NCBI GenBank assembly: GCA_937951485.1
Contig: CALEDJ010000034.1
Location: 1-64,000 of the forward strand
Direction of reading: 5' to 3'
DNA: 64,000 bases
Origin: an uncultured bacterium
Lineage (GTDB): Bacteria; Hydrogenedentota; Hydrogenedentia; Hydrogenedentales; CAILVY01
The stretch's first letter is position 1; each line of letters opens with the position of its first letter. The translations under genes and the position numbers were made by a program. Of this stretch, positions 11,424 to 54,885 are shown one piece after another. The notes below the pieces were generated by a model that was given only the letters and a program-made list of their open reading frames with translations, had not been told where the DNA came from and did no database searches.

Positions 11424-11479
11424 CTCGCAACCGGCATTCTATCCAAGAGCGGGGAATGATGTCAATGGCGCAAAGGACT

Positions 11480-11587
11480 CAGGCATTTGCGAAATGATCC
11501 TTCTTGACGGTCGTAACATCGCCCCCCCTGATATTTCCGATGCAAACTGTCTTCGCAGTAAGTGAAAAAGCACATTTCGCAAATACC
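11480..11587. repeat. Palindromic element with inverted ends GGCATTTGCGAAATG
   Basis: Left arm 11482-11496 and right arm 11573-11587 form an inverted repeat with one mismatch around a ~76-base interior that contains CTGATATTTCC. The same arms and a matching interior word (CAGATATTTCC) occur inside the sulfurtransferase gene at 42965-43066. It sits between tRNA-Cys and the end of mltG. Confidence 0.8.
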
Positions 11588-11641
11588 CCGGACTGGAGAA
11601 ATGCGTTCCGGCCATAAAGAATCATGGCCGGGACGCCCATG

Positions 11642-42309: not shown

Positions 42310-43284
42310 TTACGAACAGGAACCCCACTCCGCCATGGAACCTTCATACGACGCAACATTATTCCGACCGCCAAGCAACGCGCCGAAACAGCCGACGCTT
42401 GCATCGCGCCCGGAATTGCAGTACGTCACGATACGCCTGGCGGTGTCCGGAACCGCGCCGCGCAGAGCGGCTTCCAATTCCTGCGCCGCGCGAAAGATAT
42501 AATACGCGCCATTTTCGCGCGCTTCCAGCAGGGAGGATGCCGGCACATTGGCCGCGCCCGGGATATGGCCGGCGCGCGCGGCGAAATCGCTCTTGGCCGC
42601 GCCGTCTTGATCCTGCAACACGATGAGTTCTTCCTGCATCACCAACCGTTCCGAGCGTGGCGCCAGAGACAACGCTGAGGGATCCAGTCCGGCGGCGAAG
42701 ACCGGCTCATGTTCTATCGGACGGCACTCATATTTCCATTCGGCGCGCCCGCCGTCAAGGATGGCCACACGGGGATAGGACAGGTAATCCAAGACCCAGA
42801 AGGCGCGCGTTGCGTTCTGTGCATCCGAGGAATCCGCCATTCCTGAATGGAGCACGACATGCTTCGCCGGGTCAATGCCCGCTTCGGCAAGCACGCGCGC
42901 GAGCGCATCGGTCGCCTTCAGGAGACCCCGAACGCCATTGCGCTCTTCCGAGAGTTGCTCATGGTGAGGCATTTGCGAAATGGGCGTTTCAAACCTCAAT
43001 TCCATCAAAAATCCCAGATATTTCCTGCTCTTAAACGCAAAAATCGTCCATTTCGCAAATGCCTCATAGTCGAAATGGACAGCCCCGGGAATGTGGCCCT
43101 GCAAATAGTCATCTTTCGGGCGGCGGTCCAACACCAGTAAATCACCGCTGTTTTCCTCCTGCAGGTTTGCGAGATTCGCTGTTTCGACCAGCAGTTTCGG
43201 GCTGTCCGCGCCTGCCGACACTGCACCCGTGACAAACAGCGCCACAAGCCCGCCCAGGAGGAAGAGACTCATTCGGCACGTCAT
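42310..43284 (-). CDS. Exported sulfurtransferase, two rhodanese domains, carrying a palindromic insert
   Basis: A 324-residue protein with a signal peptide (MSLFLLGGLVALFVTGAVSAG). The first rhodanese domain (LLVLDRRPKDDYLQGHIPGAV) lacks the catalytic Cys. The second ends in VTYCNSGRDAS, with the active-site Cys. It is of thiosulfate/3-mercaptopyruvate sulfurtransferase type and would act outside the cytoplasm. Residues ~73-106 (FAKWTIFAFKSRKYLGFLME onward) are encoded by a 102-bp palindromic element and have no counterpart in typical family members. Start at 43284 has AAGGAA upstream. The ATG at 43272 is an alternative. Confidence 0.85.
   Translation of the reverse strand: MTCRMSLFLLGGLVALFVTGAVSAGADSPKLLVETANLANLQEENSGDLLVLDRRPKDDYLQGHIPGAVHFDYEAFAKWTIFAFKSRKYLGFLMELRFETPISQMPHHEQLSEERNGVRGLLKATDALARVLAEAGIDPAKHVVLHSGMADSSDAQNATRAFWVLDYLSYPRVAILDGGRAEWKYECRPIEHEPVFAAGLDPSALSLAPRSERLVMQEELIVLQDQDGAAKSDFAARAGHIPGAANVPASSLLEARENGAYYIFRAAQELEAALRGAVPDTARRIVTYCNSGRDASVGCFGALLGGRNNVASYEGSMAEWGSCS
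42965..43066. repeat. In-frame palindromic element inside the sulfurtransferase gene
   Basis: Perfect 19-bp inverted ends at 42965-42983 and 43048-43066 (TGAGGCATTTGCGAAATGG). The total of 102 bp equals 34 codons and is open in the gene frame. The ends match the intergenic element at 11480-11587. Confidence 0.88.
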
Positions 43285-54557: not shown

Positions 54558-54830
54558 CGTCATTGCGAGTCCCCCACCGCCTTCGGCGGCGATTCATGGA
54601 AGAAAGGAAACGCACTTTCGTGGCAATACAACAATTTGAATCCATCCGCCAACCCCGAATCCTCGTCATTGCGAGCGAAGCGAAGAAAACTGCTGCTGTG
54701 ACGACTTTCGCTGCGCAAATACGCCGCAATAGGAACATACAAGCAATCTCGGACATTATATGAGGCCACCATTATTTCAGATTTCTTCGATCAGCGGCGC
54801 ACTGCGCCGCACCGCCCGCGATGACGAAAA
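54558..54830. repeat. Dispersed CGTCATTGCGAG-type intergenic repeats
   Basis: CGTCATTGCGAG occurs at 54558-54569 and again at 54664-54675 followed by CGAAGCGAAG. An inverted partner CGCGATGACG lies at 54818-54827. Small hairpins (CCGCCTTCGGCGG, GCGGCGCACTGCGCCGC) lie between. This is the common bacterial intergenic repeat that translates as 'RNDE/SLRSQ'-type false proteins. The gap 54499-54885 has no supported gene. Confidence 0.75.
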
Positions 54831-54885
54831 GAAAGTTCTATGTGTGCTGATTCCAAAGGTTAGGCCAGTCGGCCAAAAATGTTGC

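Follow-up and report, generated by a model that had tools for sequence, protein, structure and literature searches.

The locus studied here raises the question of how a palindrome-ended block came to lie in frame within an enzyme gene, and whether such a block belongs to a class of repeats that make new peptide segments or to an ordinary mobile element. In the window, i.e. the whole stretch of 64,000 nucleotides that was analysed, the following features are relevant to this question:

42310..43284, minus strand: two-domain rhodanese-type sulfurtransferase gene, 324 aa, with the insert at about residues 75-109
42966..43065, plus strand: MITE copy of 100 bp with inverted ends GAGGCATTTGCGAAATGG / CCATTTCGCAAATGCCTC
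42961..42965, plus strand: target-site duplication copy ATGGT, matching the other copy at 4/5 bases
43066..43070, plus strand: target-site duplication copy ATAGT; the minus strand reads GAC TAT GAG, cf. LDYEQLSE in the orthologue L076
11480..11589, plus strand: second MITE copy, of a 110-bp subfamily (CAGGC...CCCC), intergenic and adjoining a tRNA gene
54640..54875, plus strand: dispersed repeat with a MITE empty site, a single target near 54842

The block very probably belongs to a family of non-autonomous DNA transposons (MITEs) in Candidatus Hydrogenedentota and is a copy that was mobilised in trans and tolerated in the gene. The MITE copy at 42966-43065 has inverted ends that are perfect over 18 bp, and each arm in turn makes up a small hairpin (CATTT-GCG-AAATG). 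The earlier note had placed a palindrome-ended block here, which holds, but with a length of 102 bp and ends of 19 bp, since it included one base of each copy of the target duplication. That duplication, which the note had proposed to look for, is present with one mismatch (ATGGT/ATAGT). Because the minus strand of the ATAGT copy reads GAC TAT GAG as in L076, this side is probably the original target, and the orthologue reading suggests that the original sequence was probably GAC TAT GAG CAA. Together with the duplication, the insertion lengthens the host gene by 105 bp, which make 35 codons with no stop in the minus-strand frame; the in-frame addition claimed before thus stands, with 35 instead of 34 codons. 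The closest sister of this copy (C28:21895) is 98% identical to it, which suggests from the sequence a fairly recent insertion.

The host gene has a full open frame with a signal-like N terminus and without frameshift or stop. Its product gave a Pfam rhodanese match, has relatives among 3-mercaptopyruvate and thiosulfate sulfurtransferases and keeps the C-terminal active-site motif YCNSG. For comparison, we used orthologues from 29 loci of the same order, the insertion site being covered in 28 of them. The 35 residues were absent from all of these 28 orthologues, as expected in the earlier note for an insertion, and the inserted peptide was found in no orthologue at all. The same-order orthologues read HLD..LSETRDG and the window protein HFDYE-[35 aa]-LSEERNG; in the case of L076, the sequence is LDYEQLSENRDG, and the window protein has FDYEAFAKW...MPHHEQLSEERNG at the same place. 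In the alignment to solved sulfurtransferases, the HIPGAV.FD segment of the first rhodanese domain precedes the insert, in agreement with the position proposed before. The insertion point is a probable surface loop of this first, non-catalytic domain, a placement judged from the rhodanese fold in general. A single-sequence structure prediction of the host protein had a low mean pLDDT of 38.6 and was uninformative on the fold.

In the own genome, which is 4.5 Mb in size and 94% complete (Candidatus Hydrogenedentota), the arm had 134 matches with at most one mismatch, compared to 0 for the reversed control, and a search with a profile built from 30 copies gave about 90 distinct dispersed copies. 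The further genome copies anticipated in the earlier note thus exist. Both ends were present in 84 copies, 51 of them exactly 100 bp long. Exact 5-bp duplications flank 27 of these 84 complete copies, whereas 0.4 would be expected and no more than 3 were reached in any of 500 shuffles; if one mismatch is tolerated, the number rises to 41/84 against an expectation of 1.95. Exact 6-bp matches at five copies (0.09 expected) may be 5-bp duplications lengthened by one chance base. The intergenic element 31 kb away, to which the ends of the block had been matched before, proved to be real: it is the 110-bp subfamily copy at 11480-11589, flanked by the exact duplication GGACT at 11475-11479 and 11590-11594. 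At another locus (L162, G000:C19:36825-37040), a 110-bp subfamily copy is nested in a 100-bp copy of the same MITE family, so the 100-bp copy was already in place when the 110-bp element moved. MITE copies are also hosts to a second dispersed repeat, GTAACCGTTCACGGGGTT...AACCCCGTGAACGGTTAC, which is inserted in them at L160 (G000:C6:86186-86448), L161 (C16:91475) and L172 (C19:88) and, in C6, has the 8-bp repeat AAATCCCG on its flanks. Arrays of a unit like CTCTCCCGGAGGGAGAGGGAGCACAAACATGCCTCAGGTTTCGCCATATACACC were seen at L147 (G000:C11:1-340), L150 (C4 end) and L161 (C16), i.e. at two contig ends and elsewhere; they are absent from the window.

The window also contains an empty site of paralogous origin. 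The repeat copy at 54640-54875 lacks exactly the 105 bp, i.e. the 100-bp element plus 5 bp, that four aligned relatives carry at that point. In all, five repeat copies (L137, L138, L142, L143, L159) have the MITE at one point where it is missing from the window copy, so that the host repeat and the MITE in it were copied together. This host repeat is itself dispersed, ends in CAGTCGGCT and carries TCATTGCGAGCGAAGCGAAG-type sequence.

Matches to the end AGGCATTTGCGAAAT numbered 73 in the own genome, 58 in G002 (same family), 21 in G009 and 5 in G047, and five further genomes of 68 had one or two each; the control had 0 matches. G002, G009 and G047 have families that share the MITE ends but have other interiors, with elements of 129 bp in G002 and about 116 bp in G009, and 5-bp duplications around the copies read in both of these genomes. 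Across genome contigs, the element end was concentrated in Hydrogenedentota, and viral contigs had 12 scattered matches; the full-element pattern had 0 matches in genome contigs and viral contigs. In G047, 141 bp of a multicopy element lie at five contig ends and include two different element ends, the flanks pairing by the pentamers CTATC and TATGT; another 141-bp end is common to three contig ends in G002. The 141-bp contig-end overlaps are those of L203, L209, L233, L234 and L235 (G047/G068) and of L277, L286 and L287 (G002). From these assembly breaks in two relatives, we infer a longer multicopy element with the MITE ends that was collapsed by the assemblies and lost from the bins. In G047 and G002, this longer element is likely to be the autonomous insertion sequence. 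The bins searched yielded neither a transposase nor a complete autonomous copy, and there was no transposase between the arms at the single-arm sites of G026.

According to the mechanism that we propose, a transposase supplied in trans would recognise GAGGCATTTGCGAAAT[G/A]G, the terminal inverted repeat, and would cut the target with a 5-bp stagger, upon which the 100-bp element would insert and the pentamer be duplicated; the enzyme and its cut chemistry are putative, and the ends, duplications, copies and empty sites are observed. In the window, the element would have entered the codons of the probable surface loop in the first, non-catalytic rhodanese domain, where 105 bp in a stop-free phase would leave the gene open and 35 residues longer. 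The defining features of a MITE are present, apart from the autonomous partner, which is putative: terminal inverted repeats, short length, no coding capacity for a transposase, dispersed multicopy occurrence, target duplications of a fixed 5 bp, and empty sites both in the 28 orthologues and in the paralogous repeat at 54640-54875. A structured-RNA role was considered as well and found unsupported, with no Rfam match at the element, pairing limited to the inverted ends and a compensatory change in 1/13 pairs.

The earlier note was right to see here a palindromic mobile element with an in-frame insertion, and it had likened this element to the Rickettsia palindromic elements (RPEs), a class of repeats that give rise to new peptide segments. 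RPEs have palindromic ends and add in-frame peptides to genes, as the window copy does; they are about 150 bp long and about half of them are intragenic (PMC10969869). If the present repeats likewise persisted preferentially in genes as new peptide segments, one could account for an insertion that is in frame and stop-free in a gene of metabolic type, for consensus frames that are open or nearly so in 4/6 cases (three to four without stops) and for the 51/84 copies of exactly 100 bp, 105 bp with the duplication. However, under a frame-aware coding model only 1/84 complete copies, the one in the window at 202 nt from the called start and 653 from the stop, lies well inside a gene; seven others are 75 nt or less from a called gene end, where the position of the start is uncertain. 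Several further intragenic copies suggested by a first hexamer scan turned out under this model to be mostly antisense shadows or over-extended starts. Coding sequence makes up about 80% of the sampled DNA, so that random unselected insertion would give roughly 67/84, figures which are approximate as the sample was drawn around MITE copies with gene calls made in this analysis. Furthermore, frame neutrality is not a general property of the relatives of 110 bp, 129 bp and about 116 bp. An RPE-like family is therefore highly improbable, and the comparison, made by described features, is valid only in the sense of 'works like' and for the window insertion alone. What is seen is the behaviour of an ordinary MITE with 5-bp duplications, purged from coding DNA. 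Since 100 + 5 = 105 bp puts any standard 100-bp-class insertion in frame and 34% of the strand/phase combinations of 95-105-bp copies are in frame and stop-free, the window insertion is explicable without selection for the peptide. It is equally hard to believe that selection for survivable gene insertions has kept the 100-bp length and the half-open frames and, in addition, that the 35-residue segment has gained a role. Nothing in the present analysis shows a benefit of the 35 residues; the insert most likely persists because it is tolerated by chance, and not through selection for the peptide.

REPIN/RAYT systems consist of an inverted pair of short hairpins of about 100 bp in extragenic positions, in which a RAYT (Y1 tyrosine) transposase mobilises two REP palindromes as a pair. 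The family studied here resembles them in arm symmetry, with a small hairpin in each arm, in its size of about 100 bp, high copy number and mostly extragenic placement. It differs in its consistent 5-bp target duplications and in the lack of a RAYT gene, as Y1_Tnp (PF01797) had 0 matches in the own 94%-complete genome whereas control genomes were positive. We rejected the REPIN reading, which is the least credible of those considered. A different question, which is about what becomes of the gene and is compatible with the MITE explanation, is whether the gene is decaying as a pseudogene, with the in-frame insert as a step towards its loss. The host protein retains 29/33 orthologue-conserved columns, YCNSG included, and the four departures exceed those of most full-length orthologues, which weakly suggests relaxed constraint. 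Also, a search at E <= 1e-20 reported no orthologue of the host gene in the two remaining genomes of its family. Against this stand the complete open frame, the signal-like N terminus and the intact YCNSG motif, and we consider gene decay possible but rather doubtful.

Bacterial MITEs such as ERIC, Coxiella QMITE1/2 and CIR are about 100-200 bp long and mostly intergenic with occasional intragenic copies, and in-frame and intragenic copies are documented in other bacteria (PMC10969869, PMC5896051). The transposon family described here shares with them the inverted ends, the missing transposase, the target duplication, the high copy number and the mostly intergenic placement, but has its own end sequence, a 5-bp duplication and several interiors on one end type and, in contrast to ERIC, QMITE and CIR, was found so far mainly in Hydrogenedentota. 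One literature search listed no Hydrogenedentes paper, the phylum being little studied. The family appears to be a new, undescribed one of an already known kind. The in-frame insertion is a real but ordinary event, the sole clear case among the 84 complete copies, and it is a clean example of an enzyme lengthened by the residues that a transposon brought in. That 1/84 copies is intragenic where about 80% of the DNA is coding offers a simple measure of the strength of purging, even for gene insertions that are frame-neutral.
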